NCBI GenBank assembly: GCA_903928685.1
Contig: CAIYRS010000056.1
Span: 1 to 45,498, forward strand
Direction: 5' to 3'
Origin: an uncultured Methylococcaceae bacterium
Lineage (GTDB): Bacteria > Pseudomonadota > Gammaproteobacteria > Methylococcales > Methylomonadaceae
Length of the DNA stretch: 45,498 nt
In this document: piece after piece, positions 16,624 to 35,861 of the stretch
Layout: each line of letters opens with the position of its first letter
Position numbering within the stretch: position 1 is the first letter of the stretch
Notes under the pieces: generated by a model
Seen by the model: the letters and a program-made list of their open reading frames with translations, nothing else
What the model was told of the DNA's origin: nothing
Databases searched by the model: none
Made by a program: the position numbers and the translations under genes

Positions 16624-16626
16624 TTT

Positions 16627-17004
16627 TTATCCTGCCAACACAATACGCAGTACAGCAATTACAGCCGCCAACGCCAACAATAAAAAGCTTAAATTCACTG
16701 CCCAAACAGCAATAATTTTTATATTTTCACCCGCATAATCTTCTATAACCACCTGCAAGCCTAAAGCGCCGTGATAACACGCCAGCAGCAACCAAGCGAC
16801 AATAGCGACCGTATGCACAGGCTCAGCCAACCAAACTAAGGTTTCTTGGTAAGGCGCGTTTAAGCCCATCGTCAAAAAACTAAGCAACCAAAACGTCAAC
16901 GGCACTAAAGCAAATGCCGTCACCCGTTGCATCCACCAATGGGCAGTACCCGATTTTGCCGAGCCAAGGCCACGAACTTTAGCGAGCGGTGCTTGATAAG
17001 CCAT
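16627..17004 (-). CDS. sdhD: Succinate dehydrogenase membrane anchor SdhD
   Basis: A 125-residue protein with three hydrophobic helices (around WMQRVTAFALVPLTFWLLSF, TVAIVAWLLLACYHGALGLQ and the C-terminal LSFLLLALAAVIAVLRIVLA). The helix II motif HGALGLQVVIEDY contains the heme-proximal histidine and the Asp-Tyr pair of SdhD. The frame extends to 17055, but ATG at 17004 is preceded by a strong AGGAGG and fits the family start. It lies 3 bases upstream of sdhA and just downstream of sdhC. Confidence 0.94.
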   Translation of the reverse strand: MAYQAPLAKVRGLGSAKSGTAHWWMQRVTAFALVPLTFWLLSFLTMGLNAPYQETLVWLAEPVHTVAIVAWLLLACYHGALGLQVVIEDYAGENIKIIAVWAVNLSFLLLALAAVIAVLRIVLAG

Positions 17005-21024: not shown

Positions 21025-21050
21025 TAAAAAAGCCGACAGTGCGTCGGCTT
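21025..21050 (-). terminator. Hairpin with T-run just upstream of recJ
   Basis: Arms AAGCCGAC (21030-21037) and GTCGGCTT (21043-21050) with a five-base loop; on the minus strand the stem runs into TTTTTTATT. It reads as an intrinsic terminator for the bilin cluster that ends at 21232. It lies only 12 bases before the recJ start codon, so any recJ promoter upstream of it would transcribe through it. Confidence 0.75.
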
Positions 21051-21231: not shown

Positions 21232-22830
21232 TTACCCAACGCTTTTCAGCGGCACAGCTCTCATCGGATAGATCGGTTGCGTCAAACTGCTTAAAGCATT
21301 CGCTATGCTGGCGTTATCGCGTGCATCCACTTGCACAATGGGAAAATACAATCCCCGCTCTGCTAAATAATCGGCATAGTCATCTAAGCTTGGGCTTTTG
21401 CAAATATCCAAATGGGTAATGCCAATCACTAACTTTAGTTTTGGTAAAAAACGCGCGTACAAGTCCAGATAATAATCGATTTCTGTAAATGGCTCGTTTT
21501 CGGAATTATCAATCAGCAACAACATGCCCCACGCATTTTCACAGAGTATTTGCCCCATGAAATCAAAGCGTTTTTGCCCTGGCGTACCGTAAAGAAAAAT
21601 CTTTAAGTCATTGCGGAAGCGTATCTCACCGTAATCCATCGCTACTGTTGTTGTGGATTTTTTGCGCGTTACCGAATCACTGGGGCGGGTTTCGGTGCTG
21701 ATGGGTGAGAAATCGCTGATGGCGGCGATGGCGGCGGTTTTACCTGATCCAACGCTGCCAGCAATGACGATTTTGATGCGGCCTTTCAAGGCACTGCCGA
21801 CGCTGGCGTAATTGCTTTCAAGATCGCTACGCACAGACTTTTTAGATTGGACGATTTTTAGCGCTGCCTCACCGCGCTCAACCAGTTCCAGAGCCTTACA
21901 AGCATTGATGAAGCCGATAATTTCATACAAAGAAAATTGGGTGATAGCACTGGCTTCATACAAACTTAGCGCATCGCCGCAGAAGCAATTGGCTAAGGGT
22001 TTATATTCTCTGGCGTAATAATCCAAACGCAGATATTCGGGCATTTGTTTCAGTAAAACTACGTCGGTTGCCTGCATATTCGGCAACAACCTGCCGCGCG
22101 AGACGATCAAAATAGAAAACCAAACCAGCTCATTAAGCGAATAGCGTTTGTATTTATTGACGTTGAGGGTCTGAAAAATACTGTCTTCTTCTAAAAACAT
22201 GTATTGCGACAAACGCGCAGAAAACTGCACATAACTGACTTTTTCGATGATTTGCTGATCGTTTACCGAGGTTACCGTTAAATCTTGCCAATCGACCACC
22301 ATCATCGGGATGAGTTTTTCCATTTCGCCGCTGAGATAAAAAGAATTCTCTTTAGGCAATAAATACACATCCGGACAACCGGGATATGAACAGATACGGG
22401 CTACGCCATCTGCCATCGCTTTTTGCAGCAGGCCATAAAAATACTGGTCGGGATCAAAATTGCCGCGCGTCTCAAAACGGGAAACGGGTGAAAAATGCGC
22501 TTGCACCCGGCTTAGTAATTTGGTGACCGCTAAAATACTGGGAAGATTTTTTTGCTTGGGATAACTCAATTGCCATCTTGCCGACACGGAGTATTCATTA
22601 CTGACTAAAACAATAATATTTTCAGGCGGATATTTGCCATCAAGATGTTGCAGGATTTTTATATCAGCTTCAGCATTGACCCAAACTAACATTAAGTCGG
22701 TGTCGGCAGGTTCTGATAGCACCCAGCCGCCATCCAATAATGAAATAGCCTTAACTAGCACTTCATGAATTAGGGAATAATCCTTTGTCGTGCCTGCGTA
22801 ATTTAAAATGGCTAATCGAATTTTATCCAT
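21232..22830 (-). CDS. Large protein with C-terminal Ras-like (MglA/COG2229-type) GTPase domain
   Basis: A 532-residue protein, last gene of the bilin cluster. Residues about 350-532 form a small GTPase domain: P-loop AGSVGSGKTAA (357-367), a switch region around SVTRKKSTTTVAMDYG, G3 motif YGTPGQKRFDF (414-424) and a G4-like THLD (472-475, N/TKxD with Lys replaced by His). This is the pattern of prokaryotic predicted GTPases grouped with MglA and often paired with Roadblock proteins. The first 350 residues are not recognised; LAILNYAGTTKDYSLIHEVL at the start is followed by alpha/beta segments and a helical stretch. No Roadblock gene is seen nearby. Cytosolic by absence of membrane segments. 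Confidence 0.75.
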   Translation of the reverse strand: MDKIRLAILNYAGTTKDYSLIHEVLVKAISLLDGGWVLSEPADTDLMLVWVNAEADIKILQHLDGKYPPENIIVLVSNEYSVSARWQLSYPKQKNLPSILAVTKLLSRVQAHFSPVSRFETRGNFDPDQYFYGLLQKAMADGVARICSYPGCPDVYLLPKENSFYLSGEMEKLIPMMVVDWQDLTVTSVNDQQIIEKVSYVQFSARLSQYMFLEEDSIFQTLNVNKYKRYSLNELVWFSILIVSRGRLLPNMQATDVVLLKQMPEYLRLDYYAREYKPLANCFCGDALSLYEASAITQFSLYEIIGFINACKALELVERGEAALKIVQSKKSVRSDLESNYASVGSALKGRIKIVIAGSVGSGKTAAIAAISDFSPISTETRPSDSVTRKKSTTTVAMDYGEIRFRNDLKIFLYGTPGQKRFDFMGQILCENAWGMLLLIDNSENEPFTEIDYYLDLYARFLPKLKLVIGITHLDICKSPSLDDYADYLAERGLYFPIVQVDARDNASIANALSSLTQPIYPMRAVPLKSVG

Positions 22831-22863
22831 AGCTGCTTACCTGTTAATCAAAGTTCACCCTAT

Positions 22864-23097
22864 TCACGAGTCGCAATTTAAGCCATCGCAATAAGGCGGG
22901 TCTTCCGTGCGGACGCAAGCACATAAAAATACCGTGGTGGTTTGCTCGGCAACGAAAGATAAGGGTTGTAAATCGGCAGTTTTTTGATGACTACCATCAC
23001 ATAATGGCGCTGTTTGGGTTAAGCCACAGGTACACCAGCTGTAAGTTTTTCCGGCTTCAACGGCGACGGGCATGGAGACTTTTTTAGTTGTGCTCAT
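22864..23097 (-). CDS. CDGSH iron-sulfur domain protein
   Basis: A 77-residue protein from ATG 23097. It carries one full CDGSH motif, CTCG...LCDGSH (C22, C24, C33, H37), expected to bind a 2Fe-2S cluster with three cysteines and one histidine. A second copy, CAC...YCDGLNC, has lost the histidine and may not bind normally. Tandem motifs are typical of bacterial MitoNEET-like proteins. The gene begins 4 bases after the bilin reductase stop and precedes the GTPase gene by 33 bases. A redox or cluster-transfer role in the bilin cluster is inference. Confidence 0.85.
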   Translation of the reverse strand: MSTTKKVSMPVAVEAGKTYSWCTCGLTQTAPLCDGSHQKTADLQPLSFVAEQTTTVFLCACVRTEDPPYCDGLNCDS

Positions 23098-23101
23098 AAG
23101 T

Positions 23102-23788
23102 TCAATTAAATAGTGTGTGCATGTAGTTAGCCGTCCAAGCTTCGCCAAAACTGCGGTTCATGAGTTTTAAACCTGGCGCATGGATGCGGTGGTGATGTTT
23201 GTATTCTTGTAAAACGTGTTGATATTGCTGGGTTTGTTGCTCAGGAAATTGCCGCGCGTCTTGTATTAATGTGGCGAGCTGCGGCATTAACTGCAAATGC
23301 ACAGCTGCCAAATCGCCCATTACCGCCATGTTTTCTGGGCGGATAAAAAAATCCCTGCCGGAGCGGCAAGCCTGAAACCATTCTGGGGTGTCTTCTGCTT
23401 GCTGAAACTGCGGATTTTTTTGGTGGGCCGTGTCTAAAATCCCCTCGACCAAGCTGCCGCAATCCATAGGCTGTAAACACACGCCATCGATTAACGCCAC
23501 GATGGGTTGTTCACCAAACACCACCAGCTCCATACAATACACAGGCAATTGCCAGTTTGCATCGGGGAAAAAAAATAGCGTCAGCACCTTAATTTTGGGG
23601 GCAAAAATGTGGACTATGCGTAATTCGCCACGGGCATTGACATCAAAAAACTGGGTTGCCATCACCAAATCACCATCCACTTCAGGCCGTTGGATTCTGG
23701 CAAGATTTGCAGCCAATTCCAGCGGCTGGCAAGTTAAGGGTTCGAAAGCTGCCAAAGTTGCGGCGATTAAGGCATCAAAATTCACCAT
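23102..23788 (-). CDS. Ferredoxin-dependent bilin reductase (HY2/PcyA family)
   Basis: About 228 residues. The family normally reduces biliverdin to a phytobilin with electrons from ferredoxin. Landmarks by eye: KVLTLFFFPDANWQLPVYC and MELVVFGEQPIVALIDGV (the central sheet with the LPV/IFG-x-D-like strand), FFIRPENMAV, and a C-terminal KLMNRSFGEAWTANYMHTLF close to the family ending FG-x-x-W-x-x-x-Y-x-x-x-LF. At the positions of the PcyA catalytic His and Asp this protein appears to have Thr (in VLTLFF) and Glu (in YCMELV), so the product may not be phycocyanobilin. ATG 23788 overlaps the phosphatase stop; GTG 23785 has better spacing from AGGAG, and ATG 23803 is also open. The heme oxygenase and ferredoxin of the same cluster complete the pathway. 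Confidence 0.85.
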   Translation of the reverse strand: MVNFDALIAATLAAFEPLTCQPLELAANLARIQRPEVDGDLVMATQFFDVNARGELRIVHIFAPKIKVLTLFFFPDANWQLPVYCMELVVFGEQPIVALIDGVCLQPMDCGSLVEGILDTAHQKNPQFQQAEDTPEWFQACRSGRDFFIRPENMAVMGDLAAVHLQLMPQLATLIQDARQFPEQQTQQYQHVLQEYKHHHRIHAPGLKLMNRSFGEAWTANYMHTLFN

Positions 23789-24285
23789 TGCTCCTGACAC
23801 CATTGCATTGCCGAAAGGCTGATTTCCGAAAAATGCGCGGCGGGCTGGATTTCATAAGTTCTAGCAATCGCCTGTTTGCCGCTGTCGCCGTAATATTTGT
23901 GTAAAGCCGCTGCGACCACCAATGGCGACCGACCTATGCCACGATGGCAAAACACCCACACCGGAATTTGCTGGCTTACCAGTGCAAATAAGGTTTGTAC
24001 CGCCGACAACAAGGCTTGGCGTTCGTCCTCATTGGCAATCTGCATATACATCTCACTACTTACGCGGTTGCAATCCGTTTGCATGGGTTTAGTGGTAAAA
24101 ATATCGGTAAATACTGTTTGGCTAATAACAAATTCAGGCAAGTCGGGTTGCTGGTAAACCTCATAAACATTAACCCCTGAGACGTTCAGCAGATGCCCGA
24201 CACCGTAGGCATAAGCTTGTTGTAATTGCTGAACAGTCGGTAACCCTGAAACCCGCAACCAAGCTGGCGATGCTGTTGCTACCAC
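23782..24285 (-). CDS. Dual-specificity/tyrosine-type protein phosphatase (CX5R)
   Basis: A 167-residue cysteine phosphatase. The signature VFCHRGIGRSPLV places catalytic Cys at about 113 and Arg at 119 (C-x5-R-S). Upstream, LLNVSGVNVYEV and a predicted alpha/beta fold match the dual-specificity class. No signal peptide or membrane segment. It starts 4 bases after an unknown gene and overlaps the bilin reductase downstream, so it belongs to the same message as the protein kinase two genes upstream. Together they suggest reversible phosphorylation within this system; the substrate is unknown. Confidence 0.82.
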   Translation of the reverse strand: MVATASPAWLRVSGLPTVQQLQQAYAYGVGHLLNVSGVNVYEVYQQPDLPEFVISQTVFTDIFTTKPMQTDCNRVSSEMYMQIANEDERQALLSAVQTLFALVSQQIPVWVFCHRGIGRSPLVVAAALHKYYGDSGKQAIARTYEIQPAAHFSEISLSAMQWCQEQW

Positions 24286-24289
24286 GGGC

Positions 24290-24937
24290 TTAGTTGAGGC
24301 TCAGCGCAGGAAATTCGGCAAGCATTTTCCGTAAACTTACTGCGTTTGCTTCATTAACAATAGATTGGCGTTGTTTATGGTTACAAAAATGGATGCCGCT
24401 CCAACGACTTTGATCCAGATAGTTTTCGCCTACTAATATCTCTGCTAACGCAGGCAGATTGGCATTGGGGTAATCGGCAACATCCCAAACTAGGCCAAAG
24501 CTAGCCATATGCGCGTACGCTAGATGGAAATCGGCGGCATCATTTATATGCACCAACACCACCGCGCGGAGAAAATGGCTCAAATCGGTACCGACTAAGG
24601 CAAGCGCTGCTAATAAATCGTTACGGTTAGCAGCTGTCGGCGCTAATACCACGGGTGCACAAACTTGCTTAAATTGCCCGCCTAGCTGATGCAAATGTTT
24701 GTCGGGTTGTAGTAACGCCAACAGGTTTTCATAATCATTATTATTGGGATTAAGCACGGTGCTTAAATTTGATGGGCTTGCCAACTCAATAATGATGTCT
24801 TCTTCGGGGTTCAACAGCCCTAATTCTTGCAGGCAGTAAATCGTCCAGCTGTGTGAATAAAACAAGCAATGCAAGGGACGAGAACTAAAGTTTGCTTTCG
24901 GTTGTTTAAAAATTTCAGTAAGTTGGGAGAACTTCAT
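24290..24937 (-). CDS. Unrecognised protein of the bilin cluster
   Basis: A 215-residue soluble protein with no family I recognise. It has an aromatic, Cys/His-containing N-terminal stretch (PLHCLFYSHSWTIYCLQELG), a segment AAALALVG-like LLAALALVGTDLSHFLRAVVL, and ADFHLAYAHMASFGLVWDVA. Several histidines and three or four cysteines could bind metal, heme or bilin, but no defined motif is present. Its ATG overlaps the kinase stop as ATGA and the phosphatase follows after 4 bases, so it is translationally tied to both. Confidence 0.7.
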   Translation of the reverse strand: MKFSQLTEIFKQPKANFSSRPLHCLFYSHSWTIYCLQELGLLNPEEDIIIELASPSNLSTVLNPNNNDYENLLALLQPDKHLHQLGGQFKQVCAPVVLAPTAANRNDLLAALALVGTDLSHFLRAVVLVHINDAADFHLAYAHMASFGLVWDVADYPNANLPALAEILVGENYLDQSRWSGIHFCNHKQRQSIVNEANAVSLRKMLAEFPALSLN

Positions 24938-26655
24938 AGCATTCCACTTAGTTTTGTTATTGTTAGGATTAACTTGCCATCTGCATTGGTAACGCTTGCG
25001 ACAATCAACTGACCATCGAAAGAAACCGCATAATTTTCTACGCTGCTGGCAAATTGCTTTAAACGTTGCGGTTGTAAGCTGCTATCACAGCAATACAGGG
25101 TATTTTTTTTAGCTAGCCAAAAAATCCTGCCGTTTAAGCAGCGCACTTGCTCAACATCAGCGGGTAACAGCCAGGTTTTGATGCCTTGGGCAACCGTTAA
25201 GCACCAAGCGGTAAATCGGCTGCTGGCGCTTAAATCAATGGTGACTGCCAAGACATTGCCATTCGCATGGCTTAAGGCAATCACCGGATCATCTAAAAGC
25301 CATTCTTGTAAAACAGCGGTTTGACGATCCCGCAGCACCACTTTGTTATTGGCGATGCCTTCTGAACCGACTAAGTAACCATCAGCCAAAATATGTTTTT
25401 CTGTGCTTAACCAATAATTCGGTATCACGAATTTTTGTATCGGCCCGCCCAGCTTAGGCTCATAAAAATGGTAGTAGACGTTGCTCCATAAGCAGCCACC
25501 GGATTCAACATGCCAGCCTTTTACATCGCTTAAGCGTTCTTTAATTAGGCATTCGCTGCCATCGCTTAAATTTAAGGTTTGCAAACGCGATGCGCTGGCA
25601 TAAGCCAAACTATCATTCGCCAAAACTTGCAAAGGTAAGTCGGTAAACAAGGTGCGTTTGGCTATATCGCTTGCCAGTGGCTGTAAAAGCTCCACATGAT
25701 GGGCAAAGCGTAAGCCGATGATGACTGAGCCGTGGGCATGAAAGCCATAAATGCCCAGTAATGTTTCTGAACTATTTAAGGCCAACACCACGTTATCGTC
25801 TTGCTTGCCGGGGCTTAAGGTTTGCGAAATCACCTTTATGCCCGATTCAATCCTCTCCAACATCGCCAACGCCAAGGCCGCCGAGGCAATCCGCTGCAAG
25901 GGATTTTTTACCAGTAAAAAATCAATAAAATCCCGCAATTCCGGGGCTTTTATGGCGGTTAATGACGGCACTTCCGCTAGGTTGGCATCGGTTAATTCTG
26001 AGACCGTGCCGGTAAATGGGCGCGTTCCTGTCGCCATTTCATAAGCAATCACACCCAAACTGTATAAATCGCTGTTGAAAAAAAACCGATTTTTTATCCG
26101 TTCCGGGGCGATATAAGCAGGCGTTCCGGTTACATGCAGGCCTTCTCTGGCTTCCCGTAAGGAACACGCAGCACCTAAATCAATTAGCACATACTCAAAT
26201 GTGCCGCCTTTAACCGGGCGTAATAAAATGTTTTCCGGCTTAATATCGCAATGGATAAAGTTAAGTCCATGCAAATAGCGCAGCACCTTTAACATCGCCC
26301 GCAAACAAGCCAGCATGTCTGGTAACGGCAAATGGCCTTGTTTTGCCAGTAACTCCGCCAGACTGCCGCCGGATAAATGTTCGTAAACAATGCAGGCGAT
26401 GCCATCTGAGCGATAAAAGGTATCCAAACAGCGGATTAAATGCGGATGCTGAATATCAAAAACCGCACCGACTTCCCTTAAGTAACTGCCTTTGGCGCTA
26501 GCCCTAAAACATTTAATGGCAACTAGGCTGTCGCTGGCGGTATCTTGCGCCAGCAACAGCACGCTATTAACGCCTTCGTGTATAACTGCCTGTAAAAGAT
26601 ATTGGGGAGGAAATACGCTGTTATCCGGTAACTCGTAGTTGTGCCAAGACATCAT
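24934..26655 (-). CDS. Hanks-type serine/threonine protein kinase with C-terminal propeller-like region
   Basis: A 573-residue protein. The kinase domain (about residues 20-280) has VAIKCF (ATP lysine about 48), REVGAVFDI (alpha-C glutamate), catalytic loop FIHCDIKPENILL (about 134-147), metal motif DLG in place of DFG (about 159-161), GTPAYIAPER activation-segment end, and DLYSLGVIAYEMATGTRPF. The glycine-rich loop is weak (HEGVNSVLLLA). Residues about 300-573 are beta-rich with repeated LADGYLVGS-like strands, probably a propeller sensor; no transmembrane segment is seen. Start: ATG 26655 or 26652, overlapping the V4R gene by about 35 bases. It is likely active because Lys, Asp and Asn of the catalytic set are kept. 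Confidence 0.88.
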   Translation of the reverse strand: MMSWHNYELPDNSVFPPQYLLQAVIHEGVNSVLLLAQDTASDSLVAIKCFRASAKGSYLREVGAVFDIQHPHLIRCLDTFYRSDGIACIVYEHLSGGSLAELLAKQGHLPLPDMLACLRAMLKVLRYLHGLNFIHCDIKPENILLRPVKGGTFEYVLIDLGAACSLREAREGLHVTGTPAYIAPERIKNRFFFNSDLYSLGVIAYEMATGTRPFTGTVSELTDANLAEVPSLTAIKAPELRDFIDFLLVKNPLQRIASAALALAMLERIESGIKVISQTLSPGKQDDNVVLALNSSETLLGIYGFHAHGSVIIGLRFAHHVELLQPLASDIAKRTLFTDLPLQVLANDSLAYASASRLQTLNLSDGSECLIKERLSDVKGWHVESGGCLWSNVYYHFYEPKLGGPIQKFVIPNYWLSTEKHILADGYLVGSEGIANNKVVLRDRQTAVLQEWLLDDPVIALSHANGNVLAVTIDLSASSRFTAWCLTVAQGIKTWLLPADVEQVRCLNGRIFWLAKKNTLYCCDSSLQPQRLKQFASSVENYAVSFDGQLIVASVTNADGKLILTITKLSGML

Positions 26656-27295
26656 CAATACTCAAATCATGTAATTGCACTTGTTCCAACGCAGCAATAC
26701 GCGCTGGCCCGCTAATTAAAAACTCACTGCAATTGTTGCCTGAATACTGATATGAAACCTGGATGCAGCGTAAATCGTAGCTACTGATGTCGGAAAAAAT
26801 GCTTTGCAGCATCCCGGCAATCATAAAATCCACGGGTTCATGCTTATCTTTTAAGGTCTGGGCAAACAAGCTGTTGAGCAGACTGACCCGAACAATCCCG
26901 TGGCTTTCCGCATCATCCATATAAATACGCAGCTTTCCCCAACCGTGGCTGGAAAAATAGCTTTCCAATAATTTCAAGTAACTGTCTACCGCAAGGCTGC
27001 CTACTTGTTGCCTGCCTTCCAGTTGCAATTCTTTTTCTAAAGATCGGTTGATGCGTTTGCCCCAAACGACGCCGCAATTTTTTAAAATTAACGACCAGGC
27101 GTCGCCCGCTTCATACTTTAAGGTGTCATAAATCGAGTGGATCATATCGCTGGATAAATAAATCACCCGGCTATCGGCATTGGTTACCACAGTGCCTTTT
27201 TCCATATCAAAGGTTTGCCCTTCAATACTGAACAGCATCTTTAATAAATCGCTGCTTAATTGTGGCGCTGGTGTTGTTTCATTCATGGTAGTCAT
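26621..27295 (-). CDS. V4R-domain protein (second in cluster)
   Basis: A 224-residue protein with the pattern of V4R (4-vinyl reductase) domains, small ligand-binding modules found in bacteriochlorophyll synthesis and sensor proteins. Seen are the helix IHSIYDTLKYEAGDAWSLIL followed by KNCGVVWGKRINRSLEKEL, then a beta-sheet portion with LRIYMDDAESHGIVRVSLL and SYQYSGNNCSEFLISGP. It starts 10 bases after the globin gene and overlaps the kinase gene. V4R pairs are part of the known bilin-globin clusters, so a tetrapyrrole-related role is likely by context; the ligand is not known. Confidence 0.72.
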   Translation of the reverse strand: MTTMNETTPAPQLSSDLLKMLFSIEGQTFDMEKGTVVTNADSRVIYLSSDMIHSIYDTLKYEAGDAWSLILKNCGVVWGKRINRSLEKELQLEGRQQVGSLAVDSYLKLLESYFSSHGWGKLRIYMDDAESHGIVRVSLLNSLFAQTLKDKHEPVDFMIAGMLQSIFSDISSYDLRCIQVSYQYSGNNCSEFLISGPARIAALEQVQLHDLSIDDVLAQLRVTG

Positions 27296-27305
27296 GTCAT
27301 TTCAC

Positions 27306-27893
27306 TCATTCAGAAGCAAGAATATCAACAGCCAGTTGTAAATGTGGCTGCATTAAGGCAAAGGCTTTTGGCGACAACACTTCTTGGTAATTTTTCAACA
27401 ACCGCGCGTAAGTCTCATAAATTGCCCGACGAGGTTTCGGCAAGCTATCCGCAAAAGCGGTTATTTCTGGATAGCTGGATTTGTCTGCCACGCTGTCCAT
27501 ATTGCGTTCTTCACGACCTGGATAAGAAAACGCTTGCAGAATGGTTTTAAACCAAATCAACAATTTATCCCGAAACCAATCGGGATCAGCCAACAACATA
27601 CTGTGTGTGGCATAGGCACTGACGTAACTGACATCACGGGTGCATTTATCGCGTGGCAATTCATGAAATTTTGCAAACGGGTAAACCGTTAACACTTGCC
27701 TGACGGTTTTAGTAACCACCTCCAACTCCACTGACATGATTTCTTTGGCGGCGGCAACTTGCTCAACATTTTCGGGAATCAACGCCAAATATTGCTGGTA
27801 CTCTGCTTCATTTAAATGACGGCTTTCAGCAATACGAAACAATTGATCTATCTCGGCATTCGCCCGCAAACTGCGATTAACTGGGTTACTCAT
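27306..27893 (-). CDS. Phycobiliprotein-like globin (BBAG type)
   Basis: A 195-residue helical protein. The region ELPRDKCTRDVSYVSAYATH (residues 78-97) matches the phycobiliprotein chromophore-binding segment C-x-R-D-x-x-Y-x-x-R/A-x-x-x-Y; the cysteine is residue 84, with Arg86 and Asp87 at the bilin-contacting places. Helices before it (EIMSVELEVVTKTVRQVLTV) and after it (WFRDKLLIWFKTILQAFSYP, then YARLLKNYQEVLSP) fit the globin-like fold. It is slightly longer than allophycocyanin subunits and has a loop rich in charged residues near 127-140. With heme oxygenase and bilin reductase in the cluster it fits a bilin biosynthesis-associated globin. Bilin attachment at Cys84 is inferred. Confidence 0.8.
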   Translation of the reverse strand: MSNPVNRSLRANAEIDQLFRIAESRHLNEAEYQQYLALIPENVEQVAAAKEIMSVELEVVTKTVRQVLTVYPFAKFHELPRDKCTRDVSYVSAYATHSMLLADPDWFRDKLLIWFKTILQAFSYPGREERNMDSVADKSSYPEITAFADSLPKPRRAIYETYARLLKNYQEVLSPKAFALMQPHLQLAVDILASE

Positions 27894-27959
27894 AATTGTT
27901 TCCTGTACAGAAGAATAATAAGGTTGAAAGTAAGCATGATTTGATCGGCAACAGCCTAA

Positions 27960-28940
27960 TTACCAAGGCAAAGACTGAAAAAACGCACTAGCAACAGGCC
28001 GCGCGGCAGGCGAATTTTGCTGTACCCCGCGTTGCGCTGACTGAATCGCCGACTGCGTGGCTAAATTGGCAATCGCGGTAATATCGTTGCTTGCCATTGC
28101 CGCGACTAAATCTAATTTTTGTGCAGGCATGGCTTCGTCCGTTTGCCAAGGCAGGGATTGAAAAAATGCCGAGCAAGTTTGGTTATTGGCTAGCGATGGC
28201 TGCGCGGTTTTCTCAACCACGGCATCAGCAACCACAGGCGCAGCAGCGGCCTGTTGCCAAGGTAAAGCTTGGAAAAATGCCGAACAAGTTTGGGTATTAA
28301 CAAGCGAAACGGCTGGTGCGACTAGCGGTTCAGAAACAACAACGGTAGTAGTCTGCGCTTGCAGTACTGGCGCATCGGCAGCGGTTTGCCAAGGCAATGC
28401 CCGGAAAAATGCCGAGCTAGTTTGGATATTGGCGACTGGTGCGATTACCGCCTCAGAAGCAGCAACCACGGCGGTGGCCTTGTCTTGCAACACAGGCGCA
28501 TCGGCAACGGTTTGCCACGGCAATGCTTGAAAAAATGCCGAACAGGTTTGGGTATTGGCATCCGAAGCAACCACAACGGGTGCAGCCACTACGTCAACAG
28601 CAACATCTAGGACGGCGACTGGCGCTGCCACCGGAGCGGCATCATCGCCAGCCAACCAAGGTAAGGTTTCAAAAAATGCCGAACTGGAAACCGCCGCTTC
28701 GGGCGCTATTGGCGCTGCTTGGGTAACATCAGTAGCGACATTTTCAGGCGCGGCAGAAGCATTATTGGCAGCGGCAAACTGGTCATATACGTCTGCCGGC
28801 AGAGGAACAAACGATGACTCAGGCAGAGAGGCTGCGGATTTTTCAGAAACACCCGGTTTGGCCTTCACCATCGCGGTTTCTAAAATCACCAGCATGGATT
28901 TAAAGTAATCCAATTGCTTTACTGTATAGGGTTGCGCCAT
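27960..28940 (-). CDS. Low-complexity protein with six SAFFxxLPW motifs
   Basis: A 326-residue Ala/Val/Pro/Gln-rich protein, probably disordered apart from a short N-terminal helix (YTVKQLDYFKSMLVILETA). A nine-residue motif S-A-F-F-x-x-L-P-W occurs six times at about residues 87-95, 134-142, 176-184, 220-228, 257-265 and 318-326; the last copy is the exact C-terminus. Spacing is 37-61 residues. Four copies are preceded by Q-T-C or Q-T-S. The ATG at 28940 has AAGGA nine bases upstream; a TTG two codons earlier is less likely. It lies between the first V4R gene and the globin gene. Not a family I recognise: evenly spaced aromatic motifs on a flexible chain suggest a multivalent scaffold or linker. 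Confidence 0.8.
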   Translation of the reverse strand: MAQPYTVKQLDYFKSMLVILETAMVKAKPGVSEKSAASLPESSFVPLPADVYDQFAAANNASAAPENVATDVTQAAPIAPEAAVSSSAFFETLPWLAGDDAAPVAAPVAVLDVAVDVVAAPVVVASDANTQTCSAFFQALPWQTVADAPVLQDKATAVVAASEAVIAPVANIQTSSAFFRALPWQTAADAPVLQAQTTTVVVSEPLVAPAVSLVNTQTCSAFFQALPWQQAAAAPVVADAVVEKTAQPSLANNQTCSAFFQSLPWQTDEAMPAQKLDLVAAMASNDITAIANLATQSAIQSAQRGVQQNSPAARPVASAFFQSLPW

Positions 28941-28966
28941 AACCAAATTTCCTTAAATGCCGTTAA

Positions 28967-29644
28967 TCAGCCGAGCCTTTCTAAGACTTCGGCGGCTGTC
29001 GCGCCTTCTTTCGTCCAAAACTCAGCAGCATTCATTTGTTTTTGCGAGCCTATTAAAAACTTACAAACATCATTGCCCATGGCATAGCATTGCAGCTCAA
29101 TACAGCCGCGCTCTTCGCGGTCATAATAAGAAAACACCCCAGCAAATAAACCTGCGTACATATGGCATACGGGTTTGCCCGCCAACGCCATGGATTGCGC
29201 TACCGCTGAGTTGCATAATTCAACAATGCTCAAGCCTTTGCTTTGCAACGCTTCATTATGTTTATCGCCCAAAGTCAGACGCCATGCGCCAAAACCCTGA
29301 ACGGTTAAAGGCCACCACCAGGTTTCCATAACAAATTGCTTATTCATTTGCCACATATCGGTCTTGCCGCCGCCGTATTCATGACGCATACGCTCACCGA
29401 AACGCTTCATATCCAAAGCCGCCCATTGCAAACCCGTTTGGTACATCAACAGCGAGCTGGAATCGCCAACTTCTTCCTCAATACCCAAGTGCAGGCCATT
29501 GATAAAGGTCTCATTCACTTTTGCTGCGCGTTCACCGTCATGCAAATAGATTGCGCCTTTATCGGCATCGATCTTGAAATAGTCTTCAGGATGATAGTAA
29601 TTGTGATAGCCCCTAAAGCCACCATCGACGACTTCTATTGTCAT
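28967..29644 (-). CDS. V4R-domain protein (first in cluster)
   Basis: A 225-residue protein with a V4R-like C-terminal half: GKPVCHMYAGLFAGVFSYYD and ELQCYAMGNDVCKFLIG (residues about 157-198), the cysteine-containing strands usual in V4R modules (C160, C181, C186, C194). The N-terminal half has EEVGDSSSLLMYQTGLQWAA, the helical part of the fold. Cysteines could bind a metal ion. It follows the ferredoxin gene by 38 bases and precedes the SAFFxxLPW protein by 26. Its role beside the globin is unknown; two V4R proteins with one globin and one Fe-S protein match described bilin-globin clusters. Confidence 0.8.
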   Translation of the reverse strand: MTIEVVDGGFRGYHNYYHPEDYFKIDADKGAIYLHDGERAAKVNETFINGLHLGIEEEVGDSSSLLMYQTGLQWAALDMKRFGERMRHEYGGGKTDMWQMNKQFVMETWWWPLTVQGFGAWRLTLGDKHNEALQSKGLSIVELCNSAVAQSMALAGKPVCHMYAGLFAGVFSYYDREERGCIELQCYAMGNDVCKFLIGSQKQMNAAEFWTKEGATAAEVLERLG

Positions 29645-29682
29645 AAACTCACCGTTAAATAAAAAAGTAGGGTTAAAAAACG

Positions 29683-30177
29683 TTATTTCTTTTCGGCAGC
29701 ATCCGAATAACGGACTTTTGCAATGTCAAAATTCAAATGCTCCAATTTTTCCACAATAGAGCGAATGATGATTTTGTTCGCAGGAACCAACACATCGCCT
29801 GTAACCGGATGCAAAATTGGCACTTGCGTCCGCTGCCCGATCAGTTTTTCCAGCGACTCGAAGGAATCGATATACAAACCTTCCGGTAACGACACTTCCA
29901 CACCATCACCAATCACCCGCGCCTGACAAGACAAACGGCTATTGGCGCGCGCACCTGTCAAAACTGCCAAGGTTAAGGTTTCCCTTGGCGTTGGCGGTGT
30001 CAGGTTTTCTGGATTTTTATCGACATACACATGGCAAGTAGCACACAATCCACGGCGACTGCATAACTGCTTCACATCCAGATTGCGTTCCAGCAAAGCA
30101 TCCAACAAATACGAATCGGCCTTAACTTCAACCGTACTCAAATCATCTGTAGCAAATTTTACTTTTATGGTTTCCAT
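29683..30177 (-). CDS. 2Fe-2S ferredoxin with C-terminal extension
   Basis: A 164-residue ferredoxin. Cluster cysteines follow C39-x5-C45-x2-C48 and C84, in QLCSRRGLCATCHVYV and SRLSCQARV, like the adrenodoxin/plant-type beta-grasp fold. About 65 residues after the domain (from SLPEGLYIDSFESL to the end) form an extra region with alternating strand and helix segments that ordinary ferredoxins lack. It is the first gene of the cluster and divergent from heme oxygenase, so it is the natural electron donor for both the oxygenase and the bilin reductase (inference). The predicted start ATG has no strong competitor. Confidence 0.88.
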   Translation of the reverse strand: METIKVKFATDDLSTVEVKADSYLLDALLERNLDVKQLCSRRGLCATCHVYVDKNPENLTPPTPRETLTLAVLTGARANSRLSCQARVIGDGVEVSLPEGLYIDSFESLEKLIGQRTQVPILHPVTGDVLVPANKIIIRSIVEKLEHLNFDIAKVRYSDAAEKK

Positions 30178-30371
30178 AATTTATCGATGGCTTGGGTTTG
30201 AGAATTTGTTTAAAAAACGACAAATATTATGGGTAAAATGAGTCGTCAATCAGCATTTTTGGTAATATTACATCAAATTCATCATTTTCATCACTTTCAA
30301 GTTAGCATCGATTGAAATTTAAATTATTTTTGCGTCTTTTCCATCATTTTTAACATTTTTATTAAATTAAT
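30178..30371. promoter_or_regulatory. Divergent control region of bilin cluster and heme oxygenase
   Basis: A 194-base AT-rich region that must hold the promoters for the eleven-gene minus-strand cluster and the plus-strand heme oxygenase gene. No strong sigma-70 match or long palindrome was found, and no regulator gene is adjacent, so what controls the cluster cannot be read here. Confidence 0.55.
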
Positions 30372-31019
30372 ATGACAACAGAAACTACAATCGAAGCGAA
30401 AAACACCCAACCCAGCATCATGGCAAACCTACGCCAAGGCACGGCAGCAGCCCACAAACAGTTAGAAAAATCCTCCTGTTTCAAACGCTTATTTGCCAAC
30501 GACTACCAGATTGACGAATACGCCAGCTTATTAGGTTACTTCTACGGTTTTTTTGCCGCCATAGAACCCACGCTATTTAAAGACCTGCCCACAAGCTACC
30601 GCGATAGCTTAAAACATCGACAAAAAACCCAATTACTCAAAAAAGACTTGGAATTTTTTGACAAAAATACCGATGACTTAGCGATTTGTGACAGCTTGCC
30701 ACCTATGAATAATTTTGCTGAAAAAATGGGCGTGCTGTACGTATTGGAAGGATCGATGCTGGGCGGACGGATGATAGGACGGCATTTAAGTAAACATTTC
30801 CAAACAGACATCCAGCCTGCGTTGAATTTTTACCATTGCTACGGGGAGAATTTAGATAAGGAATGGCAGGCATTTTCTGCCATGATGAACCGCTGTTTTG
30901 ATGATGCCGAAAGCACCGAGCATAGCGATATACTCGCCGCCGCAAACGCCACTTTTATGGGATTGCAAGCGTGGGTTGAGCGTTGCATGAGCGCCGAGCA
31001 AGTGGCTGAAGCGGCTTAA
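30372..31019 (+). CDS. Heme oxygenase (biliverdin-producing)
   Basis: A 215-residue helical enzyme opening heme to biliverdin, iron and CO using oxygen and reductant. The proximal heme histidine is in LRQGTAAAHKQLE (about H28), and the distal helix has VLYVLEGSMLGGRMIGRHL (about 121-139), the G-S/T-x-L-G-G signature of bacterial BphO/HO enzymes. Length is typical. It is transcribed away from the ferredoxin gene. No phytochrome gene is in the window, and the adjacent bilin reductase and phycobiliprotein-like globin indicate that the biliverdin feeds that system. Confidence 0.92.
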   Translation: MTTETTIEAKNTQPSIMANLRQGTAAAHKQLEKSSCFKRLFANDYQIDEYASLLGYFYGFFAAIEPTLFKDLPTSYRDSLKHRQKTQLLKKDLEFFDKNTDDLAICDSLPPMNNFAEKMGVLYVLEGSMLGGRMIGRHLSKHFQTDIQPALNFYHCYGENLDKEWQAFSAMMNRCFDDAESTEHSDILAAANATFMGLQAWVERCMSAEQVAEAA

Positions 31020-31104: not shown

Positions 31105-31195
31105 CGCCTCAGATAAGGTGGTGATACCATAATGCGCTTCCGGAAAGCCGCAAACGTGGCAGCAATTTCCGCTACCCATTGCCATCACTGCGAGC
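31105..31195 (+). promoter_or_regulatory. Candidate cobalamin riboswitch
   Basis: Upstream of the BtuF-like gene the RNA contains GGTGGTGATACC, ATAAT, GGAAA followed by a GCCGC/GTGGC stem, CAGCAATTTCCGCTAC and GCCATCACTGCGAG. These resemble the conserved order GGTG, TTAATA-GGGAA, stem, CAGC...CCGCTACTG of cobalamin riboswitches, although the usual terminal B12 box is not clear. The end abuts the ATG at 31200, which would suit translational control. B12 genes downstream support the idea. Confidence 0.4.
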
Positions 31196-31199
31196 CTTC

Positions 31200-32102
31200 A
31201 TGAAAGCCTGTTCATTTCTTCCAGCCTCAACGCACATCATTAACGAGCTGGGCTTACAAAACCACTTGCACGGCGTCACTTTCGAATGCCCTTCCGACAA
31301 GCCCAAAGTCGTCCGCTCTTATCTGGAAAACACCCACCACAGCAGCGCCGAAATTGACCGCATCGTCAGCGATTACAACCGCGAAGGCAAAACCTTGTAC
31401 TACATCGACATGGATTTGCTGCACGCCATCGCCCCCGATGTGATCTTTACCCAACACGTCTGCAACGTCTGCCAAATCGGCACCGCTTTTGTCGAAAAAG
31501 CCATCCACGCACTGCCAAAAACACCCAAGCTGATTCCGCTGGTGCCCCGCCGCCTGAACGATATTTTCGACAACGTATTAACCATCGCCACCGAATTAGG
31601 CCAAGCCGAACAAGGCCAACACCTGCTAAACCAGTGCCAGCAACGCATCGACGACATCGTTGACGTGTTAAGAAAACACCGCGTCCCACCCCGCCGCGTG
31701 ATGTTATTGGAATGGCTAGACCCGATTTACAACTGCGGACATTGGATACCCGACCAAATCGCCCTGGCTGGCGGCAGCGATGCGCTATCCTGTCCGGCAG
31801 GTTATTCCGTGCCGATGGATTGGGAAAAAATCTGTTATTACGATCCCGAAATCATCGTTATTGCGCCGTGCGGATTTAGCATTGAAAGCGCCAGCGAAGA
31901 AGTGGATTTGTTGAAAGCCAAACCAGGTTGGCACGATTTGCAAGCGGTCAAAAACCAACAAGTGTATTTGGCGGATGCCGACCTTTTCACCCGCCCCAGC
32001 ACCAGCGTCGTCGATGGCATCGAACTGCTCGCCGCTTTGTTCCATCCGCAGCTGTTCAGCATTCCTGCCACCGCGCACGACAAAGTCCAAGCCATTGCCT
32101 AA
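31200..32102 (+). CDS. BtuF-like cobalamin-binding protein without signal peptide
   Basis: A 300-residue protein of the periplasmic-binding (Fe/B12, BtuF-type) fold. The N-terminus MKACSFLPASTHIINELGLQ with HLHGVTFECPSDKP matches the first lobe of BtuF-like proteins; DVIFTQHVCNVC, WLDPIYNCGHWIPDQIALAG and DWEKICYYDPEIIVIAPCG follow in family order. A TTG at 31179 would extend it by seven residues. There is no signal peptide, so it seems cytosolic, like other stand-alone family members near corrinoid genes. It heads the local cobalamin group (cobT, cobS, cobC) after a possible riboswitch. Confidence 0.8.
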   Translation: MKACSFLPASTHIINELGLQNHLHGVTFECPSDKPKVVRSYLENTHHSSAEIDRIVSDYNREGKTLYYIDMDLLHAIAPDVIFTQHVCNVCQIGTAFVEKAIHALPKTPKLIPLVPRRLNDIFDNVLTIATELGQAEQGQHLLNQCQQRIDDIVDVLRKHRVPPRRVMLLEWLDPIYNCGHWIPDQIALAGGSDALSCPAGYSVPMDWEKICYYDPEIIVIAPCGFSIESASEEVDLLKAKPGWHDLQAVKNQQVYLADADLFTRPSTSVVDGIELLAALFHPQLFSIPATAHDKVQAIA

Positions 32103-32165
32103 GCCACTGAACGCGGCAAAGCCTAGTATTTAGCCAATGATTCTTTGCCGGATTAATCCAACCCC

Positions 32166-32246
32166 GTAGGGGCGGACGGCTGTCCGTCTATTTAAAAATC
32201 CGCACCAAATTCAGCTACGAAAAGGCGAGCAGCCGCTCGCCCCTAC
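32166..32246. repeat. Inverted-repeat element with GTAGGGGCG ends
   Basis: Terminal inverted repeats GTAGGGGCG (32166-32174) and CGCCCCTAC (32238-32246) enclose two internal hairpins, one from GGACGGCTGTCCGTC and one from GGCGAGCAGCCGCTCGCC. Such two-hairpin elements are widely dispersed small repeats. It separates the BtuF-like gene from cobT. Confidence 0.7.
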
Positions 32247-32309
32247 AAAAATTCAACACCGTCTAAGCACTAGACTAGCCACTTTTTGAAAATTACTGGA
32301 AATAACACC

Positions 32310-33350
32310 ATGCCATTCGCTGTCAACATCGCCCCGCTCAACCAACAACTAAAAGCCGCACTGCAAGAAAAAATCGACCAAAAAACCAAACCGCTGGGCG
32401 CATTAGGGCAACTGGAACAACTGGCCTTAAAAATTGGCCTCATCCAAAACAGCCTTTCCCCACAACTGAAACAACCCTGCATCATCGTATTCGCAGCCGA
32501 CCACGGCCTGACCGCAGCGGGCGTCAGCGCCTTTCCGCAAGCCGTCACCGCGCAAATGGTCGGCAATTTTTTAGCAGGCGGCGCTGCCATCAACGTCTTT
32601 GCCAAACAACACGGCATTGAATTGCTGATTGTCGATGCAGGCGTCAACGCCGACTTAAGCGCCTACCCGCAACTCATCCACGCCAAAATCGCCCACGGCA
32701 CCGCCAACAGCCTCAACCAACCCGCCATGAGCGCCGCGCAATGCCAACAAGCCCTGCAAACAGGCGCGGACTTAGTCAACCGCCAATGGCAAGCGGGCTG
32801 CAACTGCATCGGCTTTGGCGAAATGGGCATCGGCAACACCGCCGCCGCCGCGTTAATCATGCAGCGCCTGACCAGATTGCCGCTAAGCCAATGCACCGGA
32901 CGCGGCACTGGCCTTAACGACAGCCAACTGGCGCAAAAAATCGCCACCTTACAACAAGTGCTAGACCGCCACGCGCACGCCACCGACGCCCTCACCGTGC
33001 TGCAACACCTCGGCGGTTTTGAAATCGCCATGATGACAGGTGCATACCTACAAGCCGCCGCCAACGGCATGACCATCCTCGTCGACGGCTTCATCACCTG
33101 CGCCGCCCTACTTATCGCCGCACACCTAAACCCCGCCGTACTCGACTACTGCATCTACAGCCACGTCTCCCAAGAACAAGGCCACCAAGCCCTACTCCAA
33201 CACCTCAACGCCCAAGCCCTGCTAAACCTAAACATGCGCCTAGGCGAAGGCTCAGGCATAGCCGTCGCCTACCCGTTGCTGCAATCAGCAGTGGCGTTTT
33301 TGAATGACATGGCTTCGTTTGCGGAGGCTGGGGTGGCGGGGAAGGCTTAG
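32310..33350 (+). CDS. cobT: Nicotinate-nucleotide--dimethylbenzimidazole phosphoribosyltransferase
   Basis: A 346-residue enzyme making alpha-ribazole phosphate, the activated lower ligand of cobalamin, from dimethylbenzimidazole and nicotinate mononucleotide. Landmarks: KTKPLGALGQLEQLA near the start, IIVFAADHGLTAAGVSAFP, GFGEMGIGNTAAAALI, GRGTGL, and a late DGFITCAALLIA with RLGEGSGIAVAYPLL containing the catalytic glutamate near the C-terminus. ATG 32310 follows GGAA and fits the family start; a TTG at 32286 is the alternative. An IS3-family element lies directly downstream, separating it from hypB and cobS. Confidence 0.96.
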   Translation: MPFAVNIAPLNQQLKAALQEKIDQKTKPLGALGQLEQLALKIGLIQNSLSPQLKQPCIIVFAADHGLTAAGVSAFPQAVTAQMVGNFLAGGAAINVFAKQHGIELLIVDAGVNADLSAYPQLIHAKIAHGTANSLNQPAMSAAQCQQALQTGADLVNRQWQAGCNCIGFGEMGIGNTAAAALIMQRLTRLPLSQCTGRGTGLNDSQLAQKIATLQQVLDRHAHATDALTVLQHLGGFEIAMMTGAYLQAAANGMTILVDGFITCAALLIAAHLNPAVLDYCIYSHVSQEQGHQALLQHLNAQALLNLNMRLGEGSGIAVAYPLLQSAVAFLNDMASFAEAGVAGKA

Positions 33351-33520: not shown

Positions 33521-33853
33521 ATGACCACACGTAAAACATTCACCCCTGCCTTCAAGTTGGAAATTGCCAAACTGATGGTTGACGAAAACTATTTATGCCC
33601 TTTAGGGTACACCATCAAACAAGCCTGTGAAGCGTCAGGTGCTGGCGAAACGGCGGTGAAACGCTGGCGCCAGCAATACTTGGCGGAACTGGCAGGCAAA
33701 CCCTTGCCAAACACCCAAGCGTTGACCCCGGAGCAACGGGAAATACAACAATTGAAACAACGCATTAGGCAATTGGAGACGGAGAAAGACATCTTAAAAA
33801 AAGCCAGCGCCTTTTATGCCCCAGAGGGTATCTTTGCCAAGGAAATGCGATGA
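33521..33853 (+). CDS. IS3-family transposase OrfA
   Basis: A 110-residue HTH_Tnp_1 protein: FTPAFKLEIAKLMVDENYL, GYTIKQACEASGAGETAVKR as the helix-turn-helix, then a coiled coil QREIQQLKQRIRQLETEKDI. Seven A residues after CTT (33793-33799) form a slippery A-AAA-AAA site near the end. A -1 shift there enters a frame open into orfB with no stop between, giving the expected OrfAB fusion. The stop overlaps the orfB ATG as ATGA. Confidence 0.88.
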   Translation: MTTRKTFTPAFKLEIAKLMVDENYLCPLGYTIKQACEASGAGETAVKRWRQQYLAELAGKPLPNTQALTPEQREIQQLKQRIRQLETEKDILKKASAFYAPEGIFAKEMR

Positions 33854-34494
33854 GCTACAGCCTCGTTGACGAATTGAAGAAGGCGCACCCCGTATCGCAG
33901 CTCTGCGAGGTGCTGGATGTCCAGAAAAGCAGCTATTACTACTGGCAAGGGCATCGCCAACCGACAGCGCAACGCCTACGCCTGCAAGTGCAAGCCAGGG
34001 CGGTGCACACGGAAACCCACCAAACCTACGGTAGCCGCCGGATGTCGGCTGCCCTGAAAGCGCAAGGTCTGGCCGTGGGGCGTCACCGTGCCCGGAGTCT
34101 GATGCGGGAAGCGGGGCTGGCGGCGGTGCGCCCCAAGAAACGCCACAGCTATCCGGCAGGCGAAGTGTCACGCGTCGCCGACAACCACTTAGACCGCCAA
34201 TTTGAAGCCAGCAAACCCAACCAAAAATGGGTCGGTGACATCACGTATTTATGGACGTCGGCTGGCTGGGTGTACCTCGCGGTGGTGCTGGATTTGTTTT
34301 CGCGCAAGGTGGTCGGCTGGAGCATGTCCGCATCACCCGACACGGTGCTGATACTCGCTGCGCTCAACCAAGCAGCGATCCTGCGGCAGGTCACGCCCGG
34401 CATCGGTCCGCTGTTCCATTCAGACCAAGGTTGCCAATACATTGGGTCGGGACGATACGGTGACAGGACGGCGCGGGCTTGCGGAGCAATCTAA
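33850..34494 (+). pseudogene. IS3-family transposase OrfB, truncated
   Basis: The 214-residue frame has the IS3 OrfB layout: an N-terminal HTH_21 region (VHTETHQTYGSRRMSAALKA), then the rve integrase core with KWVGDITYLWTSAGWVYLAV (first Asp) and GPLFHSDQGCQYIGS (second Asp). After this the sequence changes to GRYGDRTARACGAI and stops, so the final catalytic Glu (expected in the ...NCWDNA...E segment) and about 70 residues are missing. It is a non-functional remnant; the breakpoint is near 34445. Confidence 0.88.
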
Positions 34495-34597: not shown

Positions 34598-35362
34598 CTA
34601 CACGTTTGCCAACAACCAATCAGTCCATTCGCCCAGATTATCGCCTTTAGTTGCTGACAACTGGATCACCTGCAAATTCGGATTCACCTGTCTGGCAAAA
34701 TCCAAACAACGTTGCACATCAAAATCAACATACGGCAACAAGTCGATTTTGTTCAGCACCATCACATCTGCGGCATGGAACATATCAGGATATTTCAGCG
34801 GCTTGTCATCACCTTCCGTTACCGACAACACCACGATTTTATGCGCCTCGCCCAAATCAAACGACGACGGGCAGACCAAATTACCGACGTTTTCAATCAC
34901 CAGCAAACTGTTGGGCTGCACCGCCAATTGCACCACCGCATGACCAATGCCCTGTGCGTCCAAATGGCAAGCGCGTCCGGTGTTGATTTGCAAAGCCGGA
35001 ATGCCAGTAGCGCGGATTTTGTCGGCATCGTGTTCGGTTTGCTGGTCGCCTTCAATCACAGCAATGGGGAAACGGCTCTTCAAGCGTTTGATGGTTTCCA
35101 CCAGCAACGTAGTTTTGCCCGCGCCGGGGCTGGAGACCAAGTTTAAGACAAAGATATTATCATCTTGGAAAAAACGGCGGTTTTGTGCGGCATAGGCGTT
35201 GTTTTTGCTGAGCAAATCTTGCTCAACTTGCACTAGCCGCGCGTTATCCAACGGCGGGTGGTGATGGCCTGTGCTGAGCACGGGATGGACGTGTCCGGTC
35301 ACTGGCTTAAATTTGCCGGTGCTGTCTGGGTGTTCTTGTCCGCAACCGCATATTCCGCACAT
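34598..35362 (-). CDS. hypB: Hydrogenase nickel incorporation GTPase HypB
   Basis: A 254-residue SIMIBI-class GTPase that loads nickel into NiFe hydrogenase (or helps urease). The N-terminal high-affinity Ni site MCGICGCG is followed by a His-containing linker (HVHPVLSTGHHHPP). The G domain shows LVSSPGAGKTTLL (P-loop), AVIEGDQQTEHDADKI with the family Asp, CHLDAQ, ENVGNLVCPSSFDLGE and NKIDLLPYVDFD. No other hyp or hydrogenase gene is in the window; it stands among cobalamin genes, on the opposite strand, beside an IS3 remnant. Confidence 0.95.
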   Translation of the reverse strand: MCGICGCGQEHPDSTGKFKPVTGHVHPVLSTGHHHPPLDNARLVQVEQDLLSKNNAYAAQNRRFFQDDNIFVLNLVSSPGAGKTTLLVETIKRLKSRFPIAVIEGDQQTEHDADKIRATGIPALQINTGRACHLDAQGIGHAVVQLAVQPNSLLVIENVGNLVCPSSFDLGEAHKIVVLSVTEGDDKPLKYPDMFHAADVMVLNKIDLLPYVDFDVQRCLDFARQVNPNLQVIQLSATKGDNLGEWTDWLLANV

Positions 35363-35483
35363 AGGTTTTTCCTTTAACTGATCAGTAAGTATTTAATTTA
35401 GGACTTTCAATACCCCTGTATAAGCCGTAATACTAGAGGGTGTTCTTAATTGAACCATATTACAGTGGAAACCAAAATGCCTA

Positions 35484-35840: not shown

Positions 35841-35861
35841 AAAAACATGTTTTTTTACCCC
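35834..35861. repeat. Palindrome copy 3 spanning RAYT stop and cobS start
   Basis: A 28-base inverted repeat with one mismatched pair, centred on ACATGT between 35847 and 35848. It shares GGAGT and AAAACATGTTTT with the palindromes at 6844 and 31046 but has extra A/T in place of CC/GG. It contains the stop codon of the RAYT remnant (TAA, 35838-35840) and the ATG of cobS at its centre. Confidence 0.8.

Follow-up and report, generated by a model that had tools for sequence, protein, structure and literature searches.

The stretch analysed here, which we call the window, is the whole of contig C56 (CAIYRS010000056.1; 45,498 nucleotides) from the 3.38-Mb, 99.1% complete genome of an uncultured Methylococcaceae bacterium (GCA_903928685.1), and it carries a cluster of genes for bilin synthesis, a phycobiliprotein-like globin, two V4R proteins, a protein with a repeated motif (REP) and a serine/threonine kinase. 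A sequence-only reading of the window had named heme oxygenase, ferredoxin, bilin reductase, the globin and the two V4R proteins; all of them were recovered here, the second V4R protein below the Pfam cut-off and by alignment to the first. As that reading had also described, eleven closely spaced genes share the minus strand, running from 30177 to 21232 with -47 to +66 bases between neighbours. Divergent from this run, at a distance of 194 bases, is the heme oxygenase gene. The features are the following (L numbers denote loci of the comparison set described below).

30372..31019, plus strand: heme oxygenase, divergent (PF01126, 60.2 bits; 51-52% identity to L010/L009)
29683..30177, minus strand: 2Fe-2S ferredoxin (Fer2, 36.5 bits; 77-79% identity to L010/L009)
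28967..29644, minus strand: V4R-A protein (PF02830, 52.8 bits; 80-83% to L009-L011, 39-40% to Acaryochloris)
27960..28946, minus strand: REP, repeat-motif protein with six FFxxLPW copies (orthologs P0002-P0018)
27306..27893, minus strand: BBAG-1 phycobiliprotein-like globin with a CTRD (CxRD) motif (PF00502, 38.1 bits; 70% to L017)
26621..27295, minus strand: V4R-B protein (V4R, 14.5 bits, below cut-off; 57-65% to L009-L011)
24934..26658, minus strand: serine/threonine kinase of the cluster clade of 52 kinases (PF00069, 135.3 bits)
24290..24937, minus strand: X, no P-loop, MinD/ParA-like fold tentatively predicted
23782..24285, minus strand: cysteine phosphatase-like protein, CX5R (DSPc, 23.3 bits, below the cut-off of 33.5)
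23102..23803, minus strand: ferredoxin-dependent bilin reductase, pre-1 type (PF05996, 64.6 bits)
22864..23148, minus strand: CDGSH iron-sulfur protein (PF09360, 55.7 bits, above cut-off)
21232..22830, minus strand: Ras/MglA-like GTPase with an N-terminal extension (PF03029, 40.5 bits, above cut-off; Ras, 22.8 bits)
21030..21050, minus strand: candidate terminator at the operon end, a 9-pair stem and T tail between the GTPase gene and recJ; weak, such sites being no commoner here than in shuffled sequence

Profile searches placed the protein at 23102-23803 in the bilin reductase family (Fe_bilin_red, cut-off 31 bits) and that at 27306-27893 in the phycobiliprotein family (Phycobilisome, cut-off 22.2 bits), as had been proposed from the letters. 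The reductase lacks the catalytic residues Glu76, His88 and Asp105 of PcyA and has F67, T75 and E92 at those sites, a combination that fits the signature of a pre-1 type reductase. It is 53% identical to the ortholog from Methylovulum psychrotolerans Sph1 (L017), and the heme oxygenase 51%. Rockwell et al. (2023; PMC10151467), in the passages drawn on here, defined the pre-PcyA reductases and the BBAG globins, tested the Sph1 proteins, gave as the core of the cluster an Fe-S protein, two V4R proteins, a globin, a ferredoxin-dependent bilin reductase (FDBR) and a heme oxygenase, and stated the function of BBAGs as unknown. With the gene order of Sph1 and a reductase devoid of the PcyA residues, the cluster of the window is the published pre-1/BBAG-1 cluster, so that the assignment to the kind described by Rockwell, Martin and Lagarias was right and this part is already known in kind. 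New beyond the published core are the REP motif family, the general membership of the kinase and the predicted fold of X. The mention of extra signalling genes was correct but understated, since the reading did not single out REP (27960-28946) or recognise how general the kinase is.

The six motifs of REP are separated by variable linkers, and the sixth is formed by the C-terminal residues of the protein.

28656..28676, minus strand: FFxxLPW copy 1
28515..28535, minus strand: FFxxLPW copy 2
28389..28409, minus strand: FFxxLPW copy 3
28257..28277, minus strand: FFxxLPW copy 4
28146..28166, minus strand: FFxxLPW copy 5
27963..27983, minus strand: FFxxLPW copy 6

No Pfam family, linker families included, matched REP, nothing scored above the NCBIfam cut-offs, and text searches of the literature found no description of the motif; as far as these searches reach, the motif family is undescribed. 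The protein is predicted to be disordered (mean predicted local distance difference test score, pLDDT, 46); the predicted helices are short ones at the motifs and one at each terminus. Most columns that are invariant among its orthologs belong either to the motifs or to conserved segments at the ends. Orthologs carry 3-8 copies, cyanobacterial proteins usually two, and the number varies even between related orthologs (P0006, 211 aa, 3 copies; P0001, 326 aa, 6 copies). Such variation is expected for a valency-tuned linker; collapsed assembly could give the same picture.

In order to count how widely the motif occurs, a V4R-A alignment was scanned against genome contigs, and the best 80 of 219 loci by V4R-A similarity were kept. 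Together with the window and two Acaryochloris plasmid loci they make 83 loci with V4R-A, from at least six phyla; L009-L012 (copies of L016, L017, L018 and L023) and L001-L008 (partial) were dropped before counting, and Synechocystis is absent from the locus set and from the kinase tree below. The plasmid search with V4R-A returned the two Acaryochloris clusters and one Paracoccus 4-vinyl reductase, and that with the globin returned no match. The motif open reading frame (ORF) of a locus was the best of the few ORFs starting directly after V4R-A, which slightly favours it over single background ORFs: under the strict definition it held at least two copies in 42/83 loci and one copy in 18/83, against at least two in 0/4830 other ORFs and one in 8/4693. 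With the looser definition (F or W five residues before W) at least two copies were found in 65/83 loci (background 45/4693), and with an intermediate one in 59/82 (background 11/4671). At least one copy, loose or strict, was present in 76/83 loci, the looser-motif background being 438/4693; with such backgrounds the looser definition carries little weight by itself. The 60 proteins with strict motifs held 114 of them, while shuffled sequences gave a mean of 0.29 and a maximum of 2. An origin by chance or low complexity was ruled out by these shuffles and by the lack of any background ORF with two strict copies.

The globin follows the motif ORF in 72/76 loci, and in 40 of 48 cyanobacterial loci this ORF overlaps V4R-A by four bases. 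The consensus took three forms: most proteobacterial and verrucomicrobial loci show AxxFFxxLPW, cyanobacterial ones show VxxFFxx[IVF]NWxG, and VxxxFxxVxW belongs to a mixed set, myxococcal loci among them. A profile of the cyanobacterial protein found 268 relatives, and among the 120 listed there was no Pfam domain and exactly two motifs in 115. Seven loci are without a motif ORF: L042 and L020 are at contig ends, L041 has two degenerate copies, L079 is split by a reverse-transcriptase gene with the motif beyond it, L052 has no other cluster gene, and the cyanobacterial clusters L061 and L090 look like true absences. In L079 (10631-13348, Oscillatoriales) the inserted gene reads as group II intron-like, and the motif-bearing remnant of the split gene lies directly behind it. 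The Acaryochloris motif protein of pREC3 (L014, 6624-6962) is missing from an incomplete gene table, and that of pREC2 (L015, 6624-6986) is annotated as a hypothetical protein.

The motif was also looked for outside REP. As a client tag elsewhere in the genome it was rejected: the FFxxLPW pattern occurs in the DNA at ten places, six of them in REP and the other four in unsupported frames of 16-72 residues. Other cluster proteins gave single matches only (2/62 kinases and 1/16 reductases, the latter the window's own), which we took as chance, and when the assigned cluster ORFs were searched for the strict motif, none proved to be a fusion of REP to a partner.

Among loci with V4R-B and at least 600 bases behind it, a serine/threonine kinase lies within 1.5 kb of V4R-B in 28/28 testable non-cyanobacterial loci, in 24 of them within 100 bases, and in cyanobacteria it lies within 5 kb in 24/48 loci. 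In a tree of 81 kinase domains (quick method, no bootstrap, domains below 120 residues dropped), 52 cluster kinases fell on one side of a branch with a Shimodaira-Hasegawa-like approximate likelihood ratio (SH-aLRT) support of 86 and 29 other kinases on the opposite side, a split that none of 500 shuffles matched. The outside kinases are a sample, not all kinases: 24 came from 30 fetched loci (about 202 matches in seven genomes), after removal of six sequences that duplicated cluster kinases, and 5 from elsewhere in the cluster loci. All three catalytic motifs were recognised by pattern in 38/52 cluster kinases, that of the window included. Judged by synteny and tree, the kinase is an old and general cluster member; by position it is of the SpkG type. 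Its presence in part of the cyanobacterial clusters was listed in 2014 in the passages of PMC4284462; the passages of PMC10151467 contain none for non-cyanobacterial clusters. In Synechocystis, where ferredoxin 5 is slr0148 (PMC4284462), phosphorylation of this ferredoxin was reported to be lost in a mutant of spkG, the last gene of that operon (PMC11863333).

The ferredoxin of the window is a relative of the cyanobacterial cluster ferredoxin, and the column of its T74 holds Ser or Thr in 62/63 ferredoxins of the loci, a conservation that is compatible with a phosphosite and may instead be structural. Thr18 and Thr72, putative phosphosites of ferredoxin 5, were not confirmed by search and are not used as evidence. 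The phosphatase-like protein has the CX5R motif in 7/7 homologs in the loci. The GTPase gene is found in four non-duplicate loci, all from the window's family, and on the opposite strand in L013.

X matched no Pfam family and nothing above the NCBIfam cut-offs, and it is tentatively predicted to adopt a MinD/ParA-like fold. No Walker A motif (P-loop) is present in 14 aligned X proteins, and the X profile does not match the myxococcal ParA proteins (hhalign probability 0.15%). A profile search of the PDB returned only a fimbrial subunit, represented by two constructs with a best E of 0.005, and none of its stretches passed by itself. With neither a P-loop nor a sequence-profile match, a plain ParA was rejected. 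ParA ATPases with a P-loop do lie between V4R-B and the kinase, directly behind V4R-B, in the myxococcal loci L040 (12828-13607), L043 (12563-13381) and L044 (12447-13247); other clusters carry X, mostly after the kinase.

The globin finds its best PDB match in allophycocyanin beta (E 1.5e-4), lies beside the FDBR, heme oxygenase, V4R pair and Fe-S protein, as a BBAG-1 does, and carries CTRD, a form of the CxRD motif found in some BBAG-1 proteins. CxRD is kept in 23/31 non-cyanobacterial globin ORFs and in 50/70 protein hits. Many of the cyanobacterial loci (L014, L015 and L046-L095 without L052) have two globin genes, the second of which frequently neighbours the ferredoxin gene. V4R-A is the most conserved gene of the cluster. 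V4R-B scores 14.5 bits against the Pfam V4R gathering score of 31, and it matches the V4R-A gene of a relative with 24% identity (E 3e-13); from this alignment, V4R-B is a divergent relative of V4R-A.

The host is likely a methanotroph of the genus of Methylovulum psychrotolerans, and its genome carries an AMO/PmoA-family gene (436 bits). It was correctly suspected of being non-photosynthetic: a Photo_RC search of the 99.1% complete genome found no photosynthetic reaction centre. Nor was a phytochrome PHY domain found in the genome, and the idea of extra bilin users was rejected on this ground. The cluster is patchily distributed, and globin and reductase travel together: the globin occurs in 6/151 genomes, namely 4 of the 20 listed members of the genus (the window's own included) and 2 of another genus, and the reductase in exactly the same six. 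G007, of the same genus, also carries the cluster, which is syntenic, wholly or partly, in the loci of five relatives. This synteny and the joint occurrence in the same 6/151 genomes exclude a chance grouping of the genes. Beside the cluster, at 31179-33350 and 34598-36596, are genes for a periplasmic binding protein (PF01497) and a CobT-type phosphoribosyltransferase (PF02277). Judged from translations alone, 35847-36596 reads CobS-like, 34598-35362 HypB-like, and two ORFs at 33521-34494 like an IS3-type transposase pair.

The explanation that we favour, whose chances we regard as even, is a scaffolded complex of bilin globin and V4R proteins with kinase control of the cluster ferredoxin. It joins the conserved gene slots to the Synechocystis reports on interactions within Slr0144-Slr0149 and on the SpkG-dependent phosphorylation of ferredoxin 5. 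The route predicted from homology begins with the cleavage of heme to biliverdin by heme oxygenase; the ferredoxin would then supply electrons for the reduction of biliverdin by the pre-1 reductase, and the cysteine of CxRD would be the site where the globin takes up the bilin. Both reduction and loading have been reported for the proteins of the close relative Sph1, and both were weak in the passages of PMC10151467. REP, disordered and multivalent, would hold the globin and the V4R proteins together, and its most likely docking partner would be V4R-A, because the motif ORF, which was looked for directly behind V4R-A, is indeed found there and overlaps it by four bases in most cyanobacterial loci. 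The cluster kinase would read out the complex by phosphorylating the ferredoxin, and the phosphatase-like protein would reverse this step; bilin supply, light, oxygen and redox state are candidates for the signal. The binding, phosphorylation and sensing steps are all inferred, beside a gene set, an order, a repeated motif conserved across phyla, a single kinase clade and a globin/reductase pairing that are directly observed.

Several observations weigh against this explanation. The Sph1 pre-1 reductase was poorly active, and the Sph1 globin, which binds bilin, was poorly loaded and equally so without that reductase (passages of PMC10151467), so that the true ligand may be something other than the reduced bilin. 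CxRD is missing from 69/78 cyanobacterial globin ORFs. The looser motif occurs only once in 10/76 motif ORFs, a level reached by 9% of background ORFs; the absences in L061 and L090 belong here too, and a single-chain fold cannot show a binding partner for the motif. No kinase lies within 5 kb in 24/48 cyanobacterial loci, 15 of which have more than 5 kb of sequence, and L034 (Thiotrichales, 11589-16701) has ferredoxin, V4R-A, motif protein and globin followed by other genes in place of V4R-B and kinase. The phosphatase-like gene is present in only seven loci. Finally, the available passages state that the kinase activity of SpkG was not directly verified (PMC11863333) and that Synechocystis showed no change in growth or stress tolerance when fed5 was deleted (PMC4284462).

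The window might simply hold the known cluster, with REP and the kinase as passengers without a shared function. The published core of Fe-S protein, two V4R proteins, globin, FDBR and heme oxygenase includes neither, and half of the cyanobacterial loci and L034 do without a kinase nearby; passengers, however, do not hold one position from phylum to phylum, as the strict motif (60/83 loci) and the kinase (28/28 non-cyanobacterial loci, one clade) do, which makes this account unlikely. Heme oxygenase, ferredoxin and reductase could suffice for heme breakdown, and the cluster could accordingly be read as a heme-breakdown or iron-recycling unit in which the bilin is waste, the globin a sink and the signalling genes a control. 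The weak activity of the pre-1 reductase, in the published passages (PMC10151467), would be in line with this. Yet in cyanobacterial loci V4R, REP and globin, and in many cases the kinase, persist without a reductase, and a heme oxygenase match occurs only in L091, so that the complex outlives the chemistry; we give this reading little credence.

It is similarly improbable that the cluster encodes a positioned assembly, in which REP would gather the globin and the V4R proteins into a condensate whose place in the cell is set by a ParA-like protein, as McdA does for carboxysomes. The multivalent, predicted disordered REP, the predicted ParA/MinD-like fold of X and the P-loop ParA genes of L040, L043 and L044 suit this idea, whereas the missing P-loop of X and the profile comparison with ParA do not, and a P-loop pattern scan of the cyanobacterial loci found no ParA-like ORF except one on the opposite strand in L090. 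A light sensor, in which light acting on a bilin chromophore of the globin alters the kinase output, would account for bilin enzymes and a CxRD globin in a genome without a PHY domain to use the bilin. We doubt it, since the passages of PMC10151467 call the tested BBAGs photoinactive or photoinert and report that their fluorescence, where it was measured, was low.

Returning to the scaffolded complex, we tentatively go one step further, to a proposal that we hold somewhat more likely to fail than to stand: REP would stand for a scaffold family of its own, multivalent and new, which had brought bilin-binding globins, V4R proteins, a ferredoxin and a dedicated kinase together as a signalling assembly before phycobiliproteins came to serve light harvesting, with the cyanobacterial Slr0144-Slr0152 complex as its present-day descendant. 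BBAGs are relatives of the light-harvesting phycobiliproteins, the cluster of the window is related to those from which cyanobacterial phycobiliproteins probably arose, and a conserved motif protein and a kinase give two testable handles on the function of BBAGs. The two also connect a methanotroph that is not photosynthetic with a cyanobacterial operon that is still poorly understood, and they suggest that these globins originally served in signalling or redox control and not in light harvesting.

Among known systems the closest is the Sph1 pre-1/BBAG-1 cluster (L017, contig NZ_PGFZ01000001.1), which comes from the same genus and has the same genes in the same order; the distance of five genes between globin and reductase agrees with the accessions POZ53552 and POZ53557. 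It differs in about 2.8 kb of extra sequence between ferredoxin and V4R-A; by eye, the 3' end of the ferredoxin gene seems partly repeated there, before V4R-A (L017, 7150-10000). In the main-text passages of the Sph1 paper (PMC10151467) the phosphatase, the GTPase and the CDGSH protein are not mentioned, and kinase and repeat appear in the references only. X differs from the MinD/ParA/McdA ATPases in the P-loop and profile match that it lacks. The phycobilisome with its linkers shares the Pfam globin family and, as we infer, a non-globin protein that ties globins together, but REP belongs to no Pfam linker family and the genome of the window has no reaction centre to feed. The slr0144-slr0152 type cluster of cyanobacteria, an operon that the literature connects with the assembly and repair of photosystem II, and of which slr0145 appeared in a single one of the papers listed, differs in having no reductase in the loci, in the motif VxxFFxx[IVF]NWxG, usually in two copies, and in globins mostly without CxRD. 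It shares with the window the order V4R-A, motif protein, globin, V4R-B, as well as a ferredoxin and, in many cases, a kinase from one and the same clade. Interactions among members of the Slr0144-Slr0149 set were validated by affinity purification and mass spectrometry with tagged Slr0149 (PMC9880817).

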